Shown piece by piece: positions 5,210 to 63,012 of a stretch of 64,000 nucleotides of DNA. Under the pieces are notes generated by a model, which made no database searches, was not told the DNA's origin, and was given only the letters and a program-made list of their open reading frames with translations. The stretch lies in the NCBI RefSeq assembly GCF_035751725.1, contig NZ_CP142104.1:5704001-5768000 (forward strand), given 5' to 3'. The stretch is from Pseudomonas frederiksbergensis (GTDB taxonomy: Bacteria; Pseudomonadota; Gammaproteobacteria; Pseudomonadales; Pseudomonadaceae). Each line of letters opens with the position of its first letter. The stretch's first letter is position 1. Made by a program: the position numbers and the translations under genes.

Positions 5210-5388
5210 ACTCCCTGGGGTGCTTGCCAGTTGGTGATGTCCCTGAGCCGATACGCACAACCACGGGGGTTGCACGTTGGGGCCGGTGTGCATGTCCGCT
5301 TGACGGAAAGCCTTAACGCCTCCTGCAACTTCCACCTTGAACTTTCGGGTTCAAGGGCTAAGCCGACAGCGGTTCATCCGGGGAGCCT
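5210..5388 (+). ncRNA. ssrS: 6S RNA
   Basis: A roughly 180-nt RNA that binds sigma-70 RNA polymerase holoenzyme and damps transcription in stationary phase. The 5' part (ctccctggggtgcttgcc) pairs with the 3' part (ccggggagcc) to close the long hairpin around a large central bubble. Internal segments such as gatgtccctgagccgatacg and the ttcgggttcaagggctaag stretch look like the known P. aeruginosa 6S sequence as I remember it. Position between zapA and the cyclo-ligase gene is diagnostic. Ends are approximate, set from the -10 box and the closing stem. Confidence 0.88.
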
Positions 5389-5399
5389 GATTCTCGACG

Positions 5400-5432
5400 C
5401 AATGCCAGTCATCATGACTGGCATTGTCGTTT
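5400..5432 (+). terminator. stem-loop terminator after 6S RNA
   Basis: A 13-bp perfect inverted repeat (CAATGCCAGTCAT / ATGACTGGCATTG, 5400-5412 and 5414-5426) with one central base, followed by TCGTTT. It sits just past the 6S 3' end and before the ygfA start. The T-run is poor, so it may act partly as a processing or attenuation hairpin. Confidence 0.6.
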
Positions 5433-5506
5433 CTGGCGTTTGGCATTTCTGCTCCCCTCGTTTGCGGTTACGCTGTCTCGGTGTCCCCGTCTCGTGAAGC
5501 CTCGAT

Positions 5507-6112
5507 ATGACCGAACCTGCGTTGCCGACCCGCCCGCAACTTCGCCGCCTGCTGCGCCAGGCCCGTCGCGCCCTGACGCCGGCCCAGCAACGGGACGCCG
5601 CCCGAGGCCTTTACAGGCAACTGGCCCAGCACCCGCTTTTTCGTCGCGCACGACACATCGCCCTGTACCTGCCCAACGACGGCGAGATCGATCCACGCCT
5701 GCTGCTGCGCGCAGCCCAACGCAGGGGCAAGGCGACTTACCTGCCGGTGCTCAGCCCATGGCCGCAGACCAAAATGGTCTTCCAGCGAATCCATCCCGGC
5801 GAGAAGATGCAACCCAATCGCTTTCGCATCCCCGAGCCGCGCAAGAATATCGCCCGCCAGCGCAAGGTCTGGACGCTGGATCTGGTGCTGTTGCCGCTGG
5901 TCGGGTTTGATGATGCCGGAGGTCGGCTGGGCATGGGCGGGGGATTCTACGATCGCAGCCTGGCGTACCTGTCCCGCCGCAAACAATGGCGCAAGCCGAC
6001 CTTGCTGGGACTGGCGCACGAATGCCAAAGAGTCGAGCGATTGGCGCAGGCAAGCTGGGATGTGCCGCTGCAAGGAACGGTCAGCGACAGGCGTTGGTAC
6101 ATTGCGCGATAG
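5507..6112 (+). CDS. ygfA: 5-formyltetrahydrofolate cyclo-ligase
   Basis: A 201-residue enzyme converting 5-formyl-THF to 5,10-methenyl-THF with ATP hydrolysis, recycling the inhibitory folate made by serine hydroxymethyltransferase. The family signature with the substrate/nucleotide loop, GRLGMGGGFYDR, is at residues 139-150. Basic helices open the protein. It follows zapA and 6S RNA, and in E. coli the 6S transcript is processed from a ygfA-containing precursor. The start is the ATG at 5507. Confidence 0.93.
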   Translation: MTEPALPTRPQLRRLLRQARRALTPAQQRDAARGLYRQLAQHPLFRRARHIALYLPNDGEIDPRLLLRAAQRRGKATYLPVLSPWPQTKMVFQRIHPGEKMQPNRFRIPEPRKNIARQRKVWTLDLVLLPLVGFDDAGGRLGMGGGFYDRSLAYLSRRKQWRKPTLLGLAHECQRVERLAQASWDVPLQGTVSDRRWYIAR

Positions 6113-6147
6113 ACGCCGCGCAAATCAGCGGCGCCTGGGAGATGAGC

Positions 6148-6294
6148 TCAGCGCTTGAGCGATGGCGCAGGCTGGGTGATGTCCATCGGAACATCGTTCT
6201 TGCTGCTCCACAAGCTCTGGGCGTAACCCGTGGTCACGACACCCAGGCCGAACAGAATGACCAGTATCCACAACAAATCCGGTTTGCGTTTCAT
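6148..6294 (-). CDS. 48-residue single-pass membrane or secreted peptide
   Basis: A short frame whose translation starts MKRKPDLLWILVILFGLGVV and ends with a polar tail rich in Pro, Ser and Lys. Basic residues 2-4 followed by a hydrophobic segment at about 8-22 look like a signal anchor, or a signal peptide with possible cleavage after the TGYA near residue 25. A strong Shine-Dalgarno (GAGGGGGG) lies about 6 bases before the ATG. Codon third positions are GC-rich, as in neighbouring genes. No function is recognised. It lies antisense between ygfA and the EVE gene. Confidence 0.7.
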   Translation of the reverse strand: MKRKPDLLWILVILFGLGVVTTGYAQSLWSSKNDVPMDITQPAPSLKR

Positions 6295-6489
6295 CGATTG
6301 CCCCCCTCAAGGCATATCACACACGATGACAGCAGCGGTTTTCTTATTGGCCGTGCAGCAGCGTCAAGCTTGGAAGGCCGGCATTTTGCGGCAACCCGGA
6401 CCCACACGCAAACTCTGACGTCAACCGACTGTCGGTTTGTCATAAAATCGCTGAACTATTTTCGTGTACATCGCCCAGAAGTAGAAATC

Positions 6490-6942
6490 ATGGCCTATTG
6501 GCTGATGAAATCCGAGCCCGACGAATTGTCCATCCAGGGCCTGGAAAAGCTCGGCCACGCGCGCTGGGACGGGGTTCGCAACTATCAGGCGCGCAATTTC
6601 CTGCGGGCCATGGCGGTTGGCGACACGTTCTTTTTCTACCATTCCAGTTGCCCGGAGCCAGGCATCGCCGGGATTGGCAAAATCATCAAGGCAGCCTATC
6701 CCGATCCCACGGCCCTGGAGCCTGACAGCCACTACTTCGACGCCAAGGCCAGTGCGGAAAAAAATCCCTGGACCGCCATCGATGTCGCCCACGTAGAGAC
6801 GTTCGCTCGTGTGCTCAAGCTCGACTACCTCAAACAGCAGGCCGCCCTGGCCGAAATGCCGCTGGTGCAGAAAGGCTCGCGGCTGTCGGTGATGCCGGTG
6901 ACGGCCGAGCAGTGGGCGACGGTGATCGGCTTGAAACCTTGA
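6490..6942 (+). CDS. EVE domain-containing protein
   Basis: A 150-residue protein consisting of a single EVE domain (PUA-like fold), related to eukaryotic THYN1 and to modified-base readers. Visible marks are the opening AYWLMKSEPDE, WDGVRNYQARNF at about 27-38, and the FFYHSS and GIAGIGKI segments. EVE domains are thought to bind modified cytosines or RNA bases, but the physiological role in bacteria is unclear. The ATG at 6490 is chosen because homology begins there; the open frame upstream is non-homologous. Confidence 0.9.
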   Translation: MAYWLMKSEPDELSIQGLEKLGHARWDGVRNYQARNFLRAMAVGDTFFFYHSSCPEPGIAGIGKIIKAAYPDPTALEPDSHYFDAKASAEKNPWTAIDVAHVETFARVLKLDYLKQQAALAEMPLVQKGSRLSVMPVTAEQWATVIGLKP

Positions 6943-7000
6943 GCAATGCAGCGACTAGTCAACCGTCTTCGCAAAAGGGCCCGCCTGGCCACCACAAGAC

Positions 7001-7417
7001 TTATTGAATGATCAGGTTGTTGAACAACAGATCATCGACCATCGGCTTGCCGGTCTCGTCATTCATCACTTGCTGGGTCTGCTTCAACGCTTCCTGACGC
7101 AGTTTTTCCTTGGCTTCAAGGTTGTTCATGGTCTCGGTCGTCTGCTGGGCGAACAGCGCAACCAACTGGTTGCGAATCAACGGCTCGTTCGCTTTCACCG
7201 CCGCAGCAGCGGCATCGCCGGTCACGCGCAGGGCCACGTCAGCCTTGTAGACTTTAAGCCTGGTCGTACCGTCCAGCCCATAGTTGCCCACGAACGGTGG
7301 GCTCAAGGTGATGTAGCTGACTTTCGGCGCCTCGCCTTCCTTGGCTTCCTTGCTCTCTTCGGCCATCGCTGCCACAGGCAACGACAGGGCCAGCATCAAC
7401 ATGATCCACGCTTTCAC
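7001..7417 (-). CDS. FliL-like exported protein
   Basis: A 138-residue protein with a signal peptide (about 1-19, ending in AMA) and a FliL-type C-terminal domain. A YITLSPPFVGNY segment near 35-46 resembles the FliL linker, followed by a helix with LIRNQLVALFAQQ. True FliL anchors flagellar stators at the inner membrane. This copy is away from flagellar operons and has a cleavable leader rather than a transmembrane anchor, so a periplasmic paralogue is more likely. The start is a GTG at 7417 with AGGAG about 7 bases upstream. Confidence 0.8.
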   Translation of the reverse strand: MKAWIMLMLALSLPVAAMAEESKEAKEGEAPKVSYITLSPPFVGNYGLDGTTRLKVYKADVALRVTGDAAAAAVKANEPLIRNQLVALFAQQTTETMNNLEAKEKLRQEALKQTQQVMNDETGKPMVDDLLFNNLIIQ

Positions 7418-7567
7418 ATTTCACTCCTCATCCGGTTTGCGGCCCAGCATACCGACCCGTCGTCCAAGCACAAGCTTATGGCCGGCTATCAGGGCGGGGC
7501 ATGCTCGTTGACCCATTGACTCCCACACCTACACTTATCGGCCATCACTCCCAAAGGAATAGCCCTG

Positions 7568-8545
7568 ATGAAAGCCGTGCTGTGCAAAGAATTCGGCCCT
7601 GCCGAATCGCTGGTGCTGGAAGACGTCGCCAGCCCTGTCGTGAAGAAGAATGAAGTGTTGCTGGATGTGCACGCCGCCGGGGTGAATTTTCCTGACACGC
7701 TGATCATCGAGGGCAAATACCAGTTCAAGCCGCCCTTCCCGTTCTCGCCGGGCGGCGAAGCGGCAGGGGTCATCAGCGAGGTAGGGGAGAAGATCAGCCA
7801 CCTGAAGGTCGGTGACCGGGTCATGGCCCTGACCGGCTGGGGCAGTTTCGCCGAACAAGTGGCGGTGCCGGGCTACAACGTGTTGCCGATTCCCTCCTCC
7901 ATGGATTTCAACACGGCGGCCGCCTTCAGCATGACCTACGGCACATCGATGCACGCTCTCAAGCAGCGAGCCAACCTCCAGCCCGGAGAAACCCTGCTGG
8001 TACTCGGCGCCTCCGGCGGCGTCGGCCTGGCGGCAGTGGAAATCGGCAAGGCCATGGGCGCCCGCGTCATCGCTGCCGCCAGTAGCGCGGAAAAACTCGC
8101 CGTGGCCAAGGCCGCCGGCGCCGACGAACTGATCAACTACAACGAAACCAGCCTCAAGGACGAAATCAAGCGCCTCACCGACGGCCAAGGCGCCGACGTT
8201 ATCTACGACCCGGTGGGTGGCGATCTTTTCGACCAGGCCGTGCGCGCCATTGCTTGGAACGGCCGGTTGCTGGTGGTCGGGTTTGCCAGCGGACGCATTC
8301 CCGAACTGCCGGTGAACCTGGCCCTGCTCAAGGGCGCCTCGGTGGTCGGCGTGTTCTGGGGCTCCTTCGCCCAGCGCCAACCCCAGGACAATGCCGCCAA
8401 CTTCCAGCAATTGTTCGGCTGGTTCGCCGAAGGCAAGCTCAAGCCGCTGGTGTCGCAGGTGTACCCGCTTTCCAATGCCGCCCAGGCGATCAACGATCTG
8501 GGCCAGCGCAAGGCTGTGGGAAAAGTGGTGGTGCAGGTTCGCTGA
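7568..8545 (+). CDS. NADPH:quinone oxidoreductase, zinc-independent MDR family
   Basis: A 325-residue medium-chain dehydrogenase/reductase of the quinone oxidoreductase branch. The N-terminal GroES-like domain (about 1-120) lacks catalytic zinc cysteines. The NADPH-binding fold has GASGGVG at 147-153. The protein ends in the usual QRKAVGKVVVQ segment. It probably reduces quinones or enones with NADPH. It is monocistronic, ahead of glpT and separated from it by a hairpin and GlpR-like operators. Confidence 0.88.
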   Translation: MKAVLCKEFGPAESLVLEDVASPVVKKNEVLLDVHAAGVNFPDTLIIEGKYQFKPPFPFSPGGEAAGVISEVGEKISHLKVGDRVMALTGWGSFAEQVAVPGYNVLPIPSSMDFNTAAAFSMTYGTSMHALKQRANLQPGETLLVLGASGGVGLAAVEIGKAMGARVIAAASSAEKLAVAKAAGADELINYNETSLKDEIKRLTDGQGADVIYDPVGGDLFDQAVRAIAWNGRLLVVGFASGRIPELPVNLALLKGASVVGVFWGSFAQRQPQDNAANFQQLFGWFAEGKLKPLVSQVYPLSNAAQAINDLGQRKAVGKVVVQVR

Positions 8546-8573
8546 TTGCGTGCCTCACCGTTTTATGACCTGT

Positions 8574-8599
8574 ACCGGGTCGAAGCCCTGCGACCCGGT
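8574..8599 (+). terminator. hairpin downstream of the quinone oxidoreductase gene
   Basis: Perfect 9-bp arms ACCGGGTCG and CGACCCGGT enclose an 8-nt loop, starting 29 bases after the stop codon. No clear T-run follows, so it may be a weak terminator or a transcript-stabilising hairpin. Confidence 0.5.
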
Positions 8600-8639
8600 T
8601 CCGCCATTCCCATAACGTCTTTCATTTATATCTGAGCGA

Positions 8640-8659
8640 CATGTTCATAAAAGAACATG
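8640..8659. promoter_or_regulatory. GlpR-like operator 1 upstream of glpT
   Basis: CATGTTCATAAAAGAACATG is a perfect 7-bp inverted repeat with six central bases. It matches 15 of 20 positions of the E. coli GlpR consensus WATGTTCGWTAWCGAACATW. It lies 109 bp before the glpT start codon. GlpR represses glycerol-3-phosphate genes until glycerol-3-phosphate binds it. Confidence 0.6.
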
Positions 8660-8702
8660 CGATATCCAGAATTTCCGCTGTTTGGCCGATGCGAACCGAT
8701 GC

Positions 8703-8722
8703 TATTTTCGGTAACGAAACTG
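8703..8722. promoter_or_regulatory. GlpR-like operator 2 upstream of glpT
   Basis: The core TTCGGTAACGAA matches the GlpR core TTCGWTAWCGAA at all but one position, and the 20-mer matches 15 of 20 positions. Its centre is 63 bp from operator 1, about six helical turns, which would suit cooperative or looped binding. Confidence 0.55.
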
Positions 8723-8767
8723 TAACATTCGCATCCGCAGTCAAAACAAGAATTCTGGAGCTCTTGA

Positions 8768-10117
8768 ATGTTTGCTTTCTTTCGACCTGCCGCACATCAG
8801 GCAGCCCTGCCTGAAGAAAAAATAGACAGCACCTACCGACGCCTGCGCTGGCAGATCTTCGCCGGGATTTTCATCGGCTATGCCGGTTATTACCTGCTGC
8901 GCAAGAACTTCTCGCTGGCGATGCCGTATCTCATCGACGAGGGCTACACTCGTGGCCAGCTTGGCCTGGCCATGTCGGCCATCGCCATTGCCTATGGCTT
9001 GTCGAAATTCCTGATGGGCCTGGTGTCCGACCGCTCCAACCCGCGCTATTTCCTACCGTTCGGCTTGCTGGTATCAGCCGGGGTGATGTTCATTTTCGGT
9101 TTCGCGCCCTGGGCAACCTCCAGTGTGACGATCATGTTCATTCTGCTGTTCATCAACGGCTGGGCCCAAGGCATGGGCTGGCCGCCAAGCGGACGGACCA
9201 TGGTGCACTGGTGGTCGCAGAAGGAGCGCGGCGGCGTGGTATCGGTCTGGAACGTGGCGCACAACGTCGGAGGTGGCCTGATCGGTCCGCTGTTCCTGCT
9301 GGGGATGGCCTGGTTCAATGACTGGCACGCGGCATTCTATGTGCCCGCTACCGTGGCGCTCGCCGTTGCGGTGTTTGCCTTTGCGACCATGCGCGACACC
9401 CCGCAGTCGGTGGGCCTGCCACCGATCGAGAAATACAAGGACGACTATCCGGAAGGCTACGACGCCAGTCACGAGAACGAATTCAGCGCCAAGGAAATCT
9501 TCGTCAAGTACGTGCTGCGCAACAAAATGCTCTGGTACATCGCCATGGCCAACGTCTTCGTCTACCTGCTGCGCTACGGCGTGCTGGACTGGGCCCCGAC
9601 CTACCTCAAGGAAGCCAAGGGCTTCACGGTGGATAAAAGCTCCTGGGCCTACTTCTTCTACGAATGGGCGGGTATTCCGGGGACGCTGTTGTGCGGCTGG
9701 ATGTCCGACAAGATCTTCCGTGGCAACCGTGGCCTGACCGGCATGGTGTTCATGGCCCTGGTGACCGTGGCGACCTTGGTTTACTGGCTGAACCCGGCCG
9801 GCAACCCGACCGTCGACATGATTGCCCTGGTGTCCATCGGCTTCCTGATTTATGGCCCGGTGATGCTGATCGGCTTGCAGGCTCTGGAATTGGCGCCGAA
9901 AAAAGCCGCCGGTACCGCCGCAGGCTTCACCGGCCTGTTCGGGTACCTGGGTGGCTCGGTCGCGGCCAGCGCCGCCATGGGCTACACCGTGGACCATTTT
10001 GGCTGGGACGGCGGTTTTGTGCTGCTGGTCGGTGCTTGCCTGCTGGCGATGGCGTTCCTTGCGCCAACGCTGTGGCACAAGCAGATCGCCAGTCAGAGCC
10101 GCGAAGCAGTCGCCTGA
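8768..10117 (+). CDS. glpT: glycerol-3-phosphate transporter GlpT
   Basis: A 449-residue major facilitator superfamily antiporter taking up glycerol-3-phosphate in exchange for inorganic phosphate. About twelve hydrophobic segments are visible. The organophosphate:Pi antiporter signature surrounds [19 protein letters not shown] (about residues 38-56), containing one of the substrate arginines. Loop 6-7 is charged ([19 protein letters not shown]). GlpT is also the entry route of fosfomycin. Two GlpR-like operators precede it. Its 3' end overlaps the convergent cyclotransferase gene by 25 bp. Confidence 0.95.
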
Positions 10118-44670: not shown

Positions 44671-45417
44671 CTAGAGCTGCTGCATCATCTTGCGGACGCC
44701 CGCTACATGCCGTCGGCTGACGATCAGCGCATCACCATTGAGCCCCTTGAGGTACAGCTGGAAATGTCCAAGGGGCGTACGTTGCAAGCGCTCGATACGC
44801 TCGCGGGCCACCAGGGCATTGCGGTGGATGCGCACGAACCGCTCGCCGAATTCGTCTTCCAGGGCCTTGAGTGGCTCGTCCAGCAACACTTCGCCACTTT
44901 CGTGGCGCAAGGTCACGTACTTGTGGTCGGCAATGAAATAGACGACCTGGTTCAGGGGTATCAGCTCGATGCCCTTGCGGGTCCGCGCGCTGATATGGCT
45001 GCGCGGGCCGCTGCCGCTTTCGGCGGCCGGACGGGTGAGCGCCGCCAATTGCGTGCGATTCGGCCGCTCAGCCTTGCGCAGTGCCTCTTCCAGCGCCTCG
45101 ACCGCGACGGGCTTGAGCAAATAGCCCACGGCACCGGCCTGCAGGACCTCGGGGGGAAAGTCATCCCGAGTGGTACAAAACACCACCGCTGGAGGTGACT
45201 CGCGCTCGCAGAGCCTTGCCGCGACTTGCAACCCGTCGAGGCCGGGCATGCGAATGTCGAGCAGCACGATATCCGGCTTGTGGCTGTCGATAAGGGCCAA
45301 TGCCTCTTCGCCATTGGTGGCGCTCGGCTCCAGGACACTGTAACCCTCGAGTTCGCCGAGCAGTCGGCTCAGGCGCTCGCGGGCCAGTGGTTCGTCATCA
45401 ACGATCAGGACATTCAT
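44671..45417 (-). CDS. algR: LytTR response regulator AlgR
   Basis: A 248-residue two-component regulator. The receiver domain (1-120) has D7/D8 acidic pocket residues, the phosphorylatable D54 in LLDIRMPG, and K at LLKP. The C-terminal LytTR DNA-binding domain (about 145-245) contains FVRIHRNALVARERIERL. In P. aeruginosa it controls alginate, twitching and cyclic-di-GMP genes. The ATG at 45417 gives the family length; the frame starts 20 codons earlier. Its kinase gene algZ is missing from the expected upstream place. Confidence 0.93.
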   Translation of the reverse strand: MNVLIVDDEPLARERLSRLLGELEGYSVLEPSATNGEEALALIDSHKPDIVLLDIRMPGLDGLQVAARLCERESPPAVVFCTTRDDFPPEVLQAGAVGYLLKPVAVEALEEALRKAERPNRTQLAALTRPAAESGSGPRSHISARTRKGIELIPLNQVVYFIADHKYVTLRHESGEVLLDEPLKALEDEFGERFVRIHRNALVARERIERLQRTPLGHFQLYLKGLNGDALIVSRRHVAGVRKMMQQL

Positions 45418-61518: not shown

Positions 61519-62796
61519 TCAAGCACTCGCCACCCGCTGAGCCTGGTCCGGAGTGAGTGCCAGCGGCAGCTCCAGGATAAACAGCGCGCCGCTGCCCGGC
61601 CCGGCGCTCCGGACAGTCAGATCGCCGCCCAACTCGTGCGCTGCCAGGATGCAACTGTGCAAACCAAAGCCGTGGCCGTCGACACGCGTGGTGAAGCCGT
61701 GCTCGAACACCCGCGCGAGATTGTCTTGCGCAATTCCCTCGCCATTGTCCTCGACCTCGACCCGTACGCGCCCATCGTCAATGACCCTCAGGCGCAGGAT
61801 GATCTGCGGCGACCGGTTCGCACCCGCCTCCAGCGCTTGCTTGGCGTTGTTGATCAGATTGACCAGGATCTGCAGCACTCGATGCTTGTCCAGCGGCATT
61901 TGCGGGACATCACTGAACTCCTTGATCAGTGTGATGTGGTGGCGGGCCAGGGACACATCGCAAATGCGCACGACATCCTCGACCAGCTCTCGTAGCGAAC
62001 CCGACTCCAGGACGCTGGCATTGCCGGCGTAGGACTGCTGGGTGGCGACGATTTCCTTGATGTGATCGATTCGGCGGGTCAACTGCGCCAACTCGGCGAT
62101 CATGACCTGCTGCTCGATTGCCAGCGCATCGGCCAGCTTGTCCAGATAGTCCGGTAGCGCGCGCCCTTTCGGATCGCTGCTGATGAAATCGCCAAGATCG
62201 TCGGGGTGCTCTTTCATCAGTTGGGCAACCTTGGCCACGCCCGGCCCCTTCGACGTGTGCACCTTCTCGTAGAGAACCTGGGCGGAAACGTTGACGCTGT
62301 TGAGCACATTGCCTACGTTGTGCAGCACATTGGTGGCAATTTCCGCCATGCCGGCCCGGCGAGCCGTGGTAACCAGCTCAGCCTGCGCCTCGCGCAACTC
62401 GTCGTTGACCCTGGCCAACTGCTGCGGGCTGGGGATTTTCAAGGCCGCGGGTATCAGGCGGATCAACAGGATGGCAGTGATCACCGAAGCAATGGCGGTG
62501 ATCACCTTGACCAGCGCCGACAGCCAATAATAAGGGTGCCAGATGGTCAGGATTTCCATTATGTGGCTGGTTCCGCAGGCCAGGATAAACACCCCGAACG
62601 CCGCGATCATCCAGTCGAACGGGACGTCCTTGCGCTTGTTGATGAAGTAGATGAGCGTGAACGGAATCGAGATATAGCTGAGGGTGATCAGGCTATCGGC
62701 GATCACGTTGGTCCACAACAGATCGGGACGCCACATATAGCAATGCCCGTGGGGCATGAAGCGCTTGTCGGTCAACAGCGCCAACAGATCGTTCAT
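61519..62796 (-). CDS. orphan histidine kinase with ethylene-receptor-like membrane domain
   Basis: A 425-residue sensor kinase. Three hydrophobic helices (about 28-53, 62-83 and 90-117) carry D34, Y41, C74 and H78. The spacing equals D25, Y32, C65 and H69 of plant ETR1, where Cys and His hold copper and ethylene binds. The kinase part has H159 (NVLHNVGNVLNSV), an N-box near 313-317, DNGEGIA near 350 and GHGFGLH. No response regulator gene is adjacent. The ATG at 62796 has GAGGA 7 bases upstream; a GTG two codons earlier is weaker. Ligand assignment is inference. Confidence 0.88.
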   Translation of the reverse strand: MNDLLALLTDKRFMPHGHCYMWRPDLLWTNVIADSLITLSYISIPFTLIYFINKRKDVPFDWMIAAFGVFILACGTSHIMEILTIWHPYYWLSALVKVITAIASVITAILLIRLIPAALKIPSPQQLARVNDELREAQAELVTTARRAGMAEIATNVLHNVGNVLNSVNVSAQVLYEKVHTSKGPGVAKVAQLMKEHPDDLGDFISSDPKGRALPDYLDKLADALAIEQQVMIAELAQLTRRIDHIKEIVATQQSYAGNASVLESGSLRELVEDVVRICDVSLARHHITLIKEFSDVPQMPLDKHRVLQILVNLINNAKQALEAGANRSPQIILRLRVIDDGRVRVEVEDNGEGIAQDNLARVFEHGFTTRVDGHGFGLHSCILAAHELGGDLTVRSAGPGSGALFILELPLALTPDQAQRVASA

Positions 62797-63012
62797 TTTC
62801 ACTTCCTCGTTGTGCCGGTGATCCCGCCAAGTGCCGTGCGGACAAATCCAGCGTAGCAGAGCCCTCCTCCGTACTGTTTGCCCCAGGATGACGCCATCGC
62901 CCCGGTAATATCCTGCGAAGATTTCGCCGTGAAACCAGCTCCCGGCTCAGTTTCGCCGGACTAATCTTCAAGGGCCGCAGGACGCGGCCCTCCAACAGTC
63001 AAGGAACGCTAC

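Follow-up and report, generated by a model that had tools for sequence, protein, structure and literature searches.

The gene under study lies on the minus strand at positions 61519–62796 of the window, the whole 64,000-nucleotide stretch of the Pseudomonas frederiksbergensis contig NZ_CP142104.1 that was analyzed. Its ATG start codon is at the 62796 end and its product, identified from the open reading frame, the translation and the Pfam families ETR1_N and HATPase_c, is an ETR1-type sensor histidine kinase of 425 amino acids. An earlier inspection of the letters alone, here the sequence-only reading, had given the open reading frame exactly this place. Residues 26–121 (62434–62721, minus strand) form a membrane domain of the ethylene/Cu(I)-binding type, which matches ETR1_N (PF25487) with 129.1 bits against a cut-off of 27 (E 7.7e-38). 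Given this score and the lack of PF25487 matches in the 14 control genomes, the match is not due to chance; the genome itself contains exactly one. The HMM comparison that the sequence-only reading had proposed as a check thus places the domain in the ETR1 family with the Cys/His pair conserved, rather than in a different family without it, the outcome named there as a refutation.

The membrane domain is followed by a dimerization and phosphoacceptor region (residues 124–257; 62026–62427, minus strand) and by a catalytic ATP-binding domain (residues 303–413; 61558–61890, minus strand). The latter is the HATPase_c domain of the GHKL-ATPase histidine kinases (PF02518, 2.1e-18), so that an ethylene-binding domain and a histidine kinase are found by Pfam on one chain, as in SynEtr1 and AzoEtr1. 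HisKA, PAS and GAF gave no Pfam match in the kinase up to E 0.1. A search of NCBIfam returned 71 families with E up to 0.1 and none of the 25 displayed reaches its cut-off, which rules out a named equivalog among the matches listed. Likewise, a solved structure for the membrane domain was sought and rejected, since none of the 41 matched PDB sequences (E up to 1) spans it. The predicted structure has medium confidence (mean pLDDT 72, pTM 0.46). It places three N-terminal helices at residues 24–54, 61–86 and 90–119, overlapped by the hydropathy peaks and in agreement with the three helices proposed earlier. In the cytoplasmic part the model shows a long helix carrying H159 (residues 124–181), a second long helix (209–257) and an alpha/beta ATP-binding domain.

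The residues of the putative ethylene site are D34 (62695–62697), Y41 (62674–62676), C74 (62575–62577), H78 (62563–62565) and K97 (62506–62508), all on the minus strand, which by sequence comparison are equivalent to D25, Y32, C65, H69 and K91 of ETR1. The numbering of the first four, and their intervals of 7, 40 and 44 from the Asp, are exactly as the sequence-only reading gave them. Together with I44, P45 and I71 they make up a complete set of eight residues, all the same in Arabidopsis ETR1, whose N-terminus is identical at 37 of the 105 aligned residues. The Cys and His are described as the Cu(I) ligands, and the Lys as the proposed partner of the Asp in a polar bond (PMC11819568). The corresponding residues are D25, C65, H69 and K91 in ETR1 and D35, C75, H79 and K98 in AzoEtr1, and ethylene binding in ETR1 is reported to need seven residues (PMC11819568). 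The spacing of D34, C74, H78 and K97 (40, 44 and 63) is exactly that of AzoEtr1. All eight site residues, as well as C19, H159, N160 and N163, are invariant in the 23 intact Pseudomonas copies (23/23). This set includes the equivalents of all seven ETR1 ethylene-binding residues, which we take to be D25, Y32, I35, P36, I62, C65 and H69.

The conservation of the site was followed in relatives from the class and phylum samples. From 40 places 34 were used; L059, L060, L061, L062, L079 and L087 were left out (below threshold, interrupted, truncated or not extracted), and L090 was used for reading L053. The Cys is present in 31 of the 34, the His in 31 and both in 29, the pair being missing in L056, L057, L081, L082 and L084. 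Membership of the ETR1_N family is therefore in itself no guarantee of a Cys/His site, and the window protein has the site. Because some members of the family have lost the pair, the retention of all eight residues is informative. On this basis we infer from the sequence that the ETR1_N domain of the kinase would bind ethylene.

Just N-terminal of the first helix is a PHGHC motif (residues 15–19; 62740–62754, minus strand), where the model is poorly defined (pLDDT under 50 at residues 13–19). The pattern PHGxC occurs in 26 of the 34 HMM-sampled relatives, and every one of these 26 keeps the Cys/His pair. Among the eight relatives without it, three have the Cys and His and lack the D/Y pair, and five lack the Cys/His pair. 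All 23 relatives in which D, Y, C and H are present have PHGxC (23/23). The association between motif and site has a Fisher probability of 2e-4, uncorrected for relatedness, and the Pfam-based sampling is unbiased towards the motif because the PF25487 model begins after it. Arabidopsis ETR1 presumably lacks PHGxC. The motif may serve in copper loading and is a candidate motif of bacterial ethylene-binding domains; the words PHGHC and PHGxC were absent among the matches listed in a literature search.

The same Cys/His site could instead sense copper or the redox state and not ethylene. The site has the residues expected for Cu(I), and a motif that accompanies the site would suit periplasmic copper uptake. 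On the other hand, D34, Y41, I44, P45 and I71 are kept as well, and their ETR1 equivalents count among the residues that ethylene binding requires. Ethylene binding is reported for the AzoEtr1 domain, which shares the D, C, H and K spacing (PMC11819568), and no copper gene was noticed by eye beside the kinase gene. Since the ethylene site is conserved beyond its ligands, a copper or redox regulator is disfavored as the main reading and is considered improbable.

The kinase half of the receptor belongs to a class defined by an H-N-[VI]-G-N box. The predicted phosphoacceptor, H159 in LHNVGNVLNSVNVS (62320–62322, minus strand; invariant in the 23 intact copies), is followed by an Asn, and there is no match to PF00512 up to E 0.1. 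The residue after the phosphoacceptor His is usually acidic in HisKA kinases and Asn is unusual, so that the autokinase activity is uncertain. The boxes of all 17 class members that were read have the form L-H-N-[VI]-G-N, and HisKA matched none of the nine class kinases scanned, the receptor from Duganella included. This points to a kinase/receiver class that is missed by the HisKA model of Pfam. One reading of these features is that the protein acts as a pseudokinase or a phosphatase and modulates other class kinases. It would agree with the missing HisKA match, with the Asn in 17 of 17 members and with one public record titled ‘putative incomplete histidine kinase’. Set against it are the PF02518 match of the ATP-binding domain (2.1e-18), the invariance of H159 and the fact that no other class kinase that could be tuned was found in G149, a second Pseudomonas genome, or in Duganella. 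A tuning role of this kind is therefore given little credence.

Kinases of this class are combined with several inputs: in eight of them PAS, CHASE8, MASE3, MHYT, HAMP-PAS, receiver, PilJ and MASE1 were found. A search with the kinase half of the receptor returned three paralogous modules in its own genome, 53–56% identical to it. The phosphoacceptor regions of the DAHL-domain kinases of this genome (L125 and L127) are 58–60% identical to that of the receptor and have the same H-N-V-G-N box, whereas their sensor half is DAHL (PF19443) and not ETR1_N. Another protein of the genome is a 1262-residue hybrid kinase (L126:4222–8010) with HAMP, HisKA, HATPase and receiver domains and a terminal module of the H-N-V-G-N class. 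Resolution of the kinase tree is poor, with 6 of its 10 inner branches open; within it, the receptor kinase from locus L025 groups with the hybrid kinase of the own genome. Consequently, ETR1_N may have joined this kinase chassis more than once.

An ETR1_N match is present in 24 of the 398 genomes of the genus sample, the own genome included. One copy (L047, genome G124) is split into two reading frames and is either a decayed copy or the result of a sequencing error. Copy locations were judged by the position of comM, and glnK and ubiK, for which the reference sequences were out of frame, were disregarded: 20 of the 24 copies (the own one and 19 of the 23 fetched) are no more than about 2 kb from comM, labeled by eye, and four (L025–L028) are at other sites. 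In L025, L026 and L027 the receptor is near gyrB/recF-like genes (by eye); chemotaxis-type genes are near it in L025 and L026, a GGDEF-EAL regulator in L027, and in L028 a phytochrome-type kinase found by Pfam (L028:2641–5163). The names of close relatives include P. brassicacearum, P. kilonensis, P. thivervalensis, P. corrugata, P. ogarae and P. gingeri.

Beyond the genus, a scan of named genomes gave at least 585 relatives of the ETR1_N domain. Among the best 80 of these, picked by patterns that include PHGxC, only seven are joined to the H-N-[VI]-G-N kinase type, namely six from Pseudomonas and one from Duganella sp. BJB480. The fusion was found in none of the 48 loci L048–L095, which represent 40 places, some of them twice, mostly with 1.5 kb of flank. 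In these samples the ETR1_N domain is widespread and its fusion to the H-N-[VI]-G-N kinase is narrow.

Neighboring genes were considered as a source of functional hints. The genes next to the kinase gene in the window are labeled by eye as glnK-amtB. A link to nitrogen through them, and through the repression of amtB and glnB by ethylene reported for Azospirillum, was rejected, with amtB in 14 of the 23 fetched stretches and four of the 24 copies at other sites. Upstream of the kinase gene (62797–63012) no sigma-54-like match was found; the whole window has 33 such matches versus 46 expected. ACC deaminase (TIGR01274 over its cut-off) is present in 13 of 24 carriers of the receptor versus 3 of 24 non-carriers (Fisher 0.005, phylogeny uncorrected). 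This link was also set aside, as the own genome scores below the TIGR01274 cut-off (235 vs 392 bits) and phylogeny is uncorrected.

The sequence-only reading described the kinase as an orphan, and at the locus this holds: when the window was searched with the receiver of the partner class introduced below, only a short and weak match emerged (45148–45324, 40% identity over 65 residues). In the same way, no class receiver was found in 22 of the 23 fetched Pseudomonas receptor loci, in stretches of 12–14 kb. The output, left open by that reading, can be narrowed by the genome comparison to a class of receivers with mostly GGDEF/EAL outputs.

The class-wide sample comprised 229 genomes, the own one included, with thresholds of E <= 1e-10 for the kinase and E <= 1e-15 for the receiver. 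Of these genomes, 11 contain the kinase class and 15 the receiver class, and every kinase-positive genome is also receiver-positive (hypergeometric 7.7e-16, phylogeny uncorrected). In nine of the ten kinase-positive genomes other than the own one, the receiver is 474–551 bp downstream of the phosphoacceptor match and on the same strand; in the tenth (G615) it is 2.3 kb away on the opposite strand. Counted per kinase, 10 of the 16 modules outside the own genome have a receiver within 551 bp and four have none within 15 kb, and in the own genome one of the four class modules has a close receiver partner. Several of the kinase-receiver gene pairs overlap by 4 bp.

A panel of 48 Pseudomonas genomes, 24 carriers of the receptor and the 24 lowest-numbered non-carriers, gives the same picture at E <= 1e-40 for the receiver and E <= 1e-15 for the kinase. 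The receiver class is found in 24/24 carriers and 9/24 non-carriers, and the kinase class in 24/24 and 8/24. Both are present in 32 genomes, the receiver alone in one, neither in 15 and the kinase alone in none. Ten of the 11 partner regulators in L208–L218 were scanned (a 195-residue one in L210 was left out): six have GGDEF-EAL outputs, three are REC-HATPase proteins and one is a receiver only. It can be predicted from these sequences that H-N-[VI]-G-N kinases go with one receiver class, the outputs of which are mostly GGDEF/EAL.

With the G149 receiver as the query, three strong matches were obtained in the own genome, 60–65% identical and all within 1258278–1265777. They belong to a regulator cluster at about 1.257–1.266 Mb of G000:C1 (L125), unlinked to the kinase gene. 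The cluster encodes RR1 (REC-PAS-GGDEF-EAL), RR2 (REC-GGDEF-EAL), RR3 (REC-HisKA-HATPase), a di-heme peroxidase-type protein and a DAHL-domain kinase with the same kinase module, which is one of the three paralogs of the receptor's kinase half. The genes of the DAHL kinase and RR3 overlap by 4 bp. The stretch L125:3409–13382 can be described as a c-di-GMP signaling cluster, and a divergent REC-HD regulator is beside it. The G149 regulator shares 65% identity with RR1 over 742 residues and 40% with RR2 over 442. RR1 keeps GGDEF and has GMGVQVRW in place of the EAL signature, which makes it a probable cyclase. In RR2, with GSDEF and a kept EAL signature, a phosphodiesterase is the probable activity. 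As a consequence of these two opposite probable activities, an ethylene effect on c-di-GMP could have either sign.

Two genomes have no class kinase other than the receptor and bear on the pairing. G149 has one class kinase, the receptor (E <= 1e-15), and one class receiver (E <= 1e-40), and the two are adjacent. The receptor gene (L027, 6187–7431, plus strand) and the gene of a REC-PAS-GGDEF-EAL protein (7418–9661, minus strand) overlap tail-to-tail by 14 bp; under uniform placement, a lone pair would fall within 3 kb with a chance of about 0.0009. In Duganella sp. BJB480 the single class kinase (E <= 1e-10) is also the receptor. Its gene (L132, 4001–5272) overlaps by 4 bp, on the same strand, the gene of a REC-PAS-GGDEF-EAL-REC protein (5269–7971), and the next gene (L220, 8008–9417) encodes a REC-HATPase protein that has a class receiver and is 60% identical to RR3 over 463 residues. 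At least two class receivers are thus linked to the Duganella receptor, and of the three regulators that stand beside a DAHL kinase in the own genome, two have relatives in this gene run.

The pairing of the kinase with RR1, RR2 and RR3 is predicted from the co-occurrence, the gene order and the neighbors of the receptor in these two genomes. The main reading, to which a probability of about 0.6 is given, is that the window protein is an ethylene receptor kinase which depends on copper and acts on c-di-GMP via regulators encoded elsewhere in the genome. In such a pathway the three membrane helices would hold Cu(I) via C74 and H78 and bind ethylene, and D34 and K97 may, as their homologs suggest, couple the ethylene site to the kinase. 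The signal would then pass to the helix pair with H159 and to the ATP-binding domain, both predicted from sequence, and the phosphate to the dedicated receivers of RR1, RR2 and RR3 at 1.257–1.266 Mb. The outcome would be the control of c-di-GMP by ethylene. By analogy with what the authors of the AzoEtr1 study predicted, ethylene may switch the kinase off.

Several observations count against the wiring to c-di-GMP, among them the receptor loci and kinase modules described above that have no class receiver nearby. The own genome has three further class modules, which may be the main users of the regulators, and the receiver class is not devoted to c-di-GMP only, one of the two linked Duganella receivers being a REC-kinase. 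The protein could be an ethylene receptor kinase whose main partner here is not a GGDEF/EAL protein and is instead the RR3 phosphorelay, a receiver of the CheY type or some orphan regulator unrelated to the class. In line with a phosphorelay, three of the ten scanned partner regulators are receivers fused to a kinase, RR3 is in the own cluster with its gene overlapping that of the DAHL kinase, and its relative in Duganella, two genes after the receptor, is as well linked to it as the GGDEF-EAL protein. For a CheY-like partner speaks L025, where the receptor is near a chemoreceptor (Pfam) and CheY-like and CheA-like genes (by eye). On the other hand, the adjoining gene in both G149 and Duganella encodes a REC-PAS-GGDEF-EAL protein, and chemotaxis-type neighbors are seen only in L025 and L026. 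A main partner without GGDEF or EAL is considered unlikely.

Ethylene receptors with an ETR1-type domain have been described in cyanobacteria (Synechocystis) and Azospirillum, with further putative members in many proteobacteria (PMC11819568, PMC7700396). The idea is therefore less novel than the title of the sequence-only reading suggests. AzoEtr1 of Azospirillum brasilense, like the window protein, is described with an N-terminal ethylene-binding domain, a C-terminal histidine kinase and the D/C/H/K spacing given above (PMC11819568); this comparison was made through the published description and residue numbers. It also carries a PAS domain, and its gene is directly followed by that of a stand-alone receiver (PMC11819568), whereas the window protein has no PAS, no linked receiver and another phosphoacceptor class. 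SynEtr1 (Slr1212) of Synechocystis also combines an ETR1-type domain with a histidine kinase and signals through a response regulator (PMC11819568, PMC7700396). It is further described as a light sensor, by virtue of a GAF domain, with a regulator and a small RNA as its targets; in the window protein GAF gave no match. ETR1 itself contains GAF and receiver domains, and its signal runs mainly through CTR1 (PMC13012798).

In Azospirillum, ethylene is reported to lower c-di-GMP and change biofilm formation through AzoEtr1, and to repress glnB and amtB (PMC11819568). By analogy, the drop in c-di-GMP hints independently at the output proposed here. For the chemotaxis of Pseudomonas to ethylene, chemoreceptors are reported to be involved, which is a different route (PMC4686702 on Kim et al. 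2007). Within the titles and abstract openings searched, from which subscription journals are largely absent, neither an ETR1-type receptor in Pseudomonas nor an ETR1-type kinase wired to GGDEF/EAL regulators was found, which is weak evidence of absence. The input half of the system is known in kind, and what is new is its predicted connection to c-di-GMP by way of unlinked regulators specific to the class.

In a wider picture, offered tentatively and at slightly less than even odds, Pseudomonas and Duganella would have plugged an ethylene receptor into the H-N-[VI]-G-N two-component class and would read ethylene directly into c-di-GMP. In Pseudomonas the receptor would compete with DAHL-sensor kinases for the same unlinked regulators, and PHGxC, conserved with the copper site, would load periplasmic Cu(I). 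c-di-GMP generally helps bacteria to choose between swimming and biofilm formation. If the proposal is true, plant-associated Pseudomonas could convert a plant hormone, ethylene, directly into a change of the messenger by which attachment and motility are governed.
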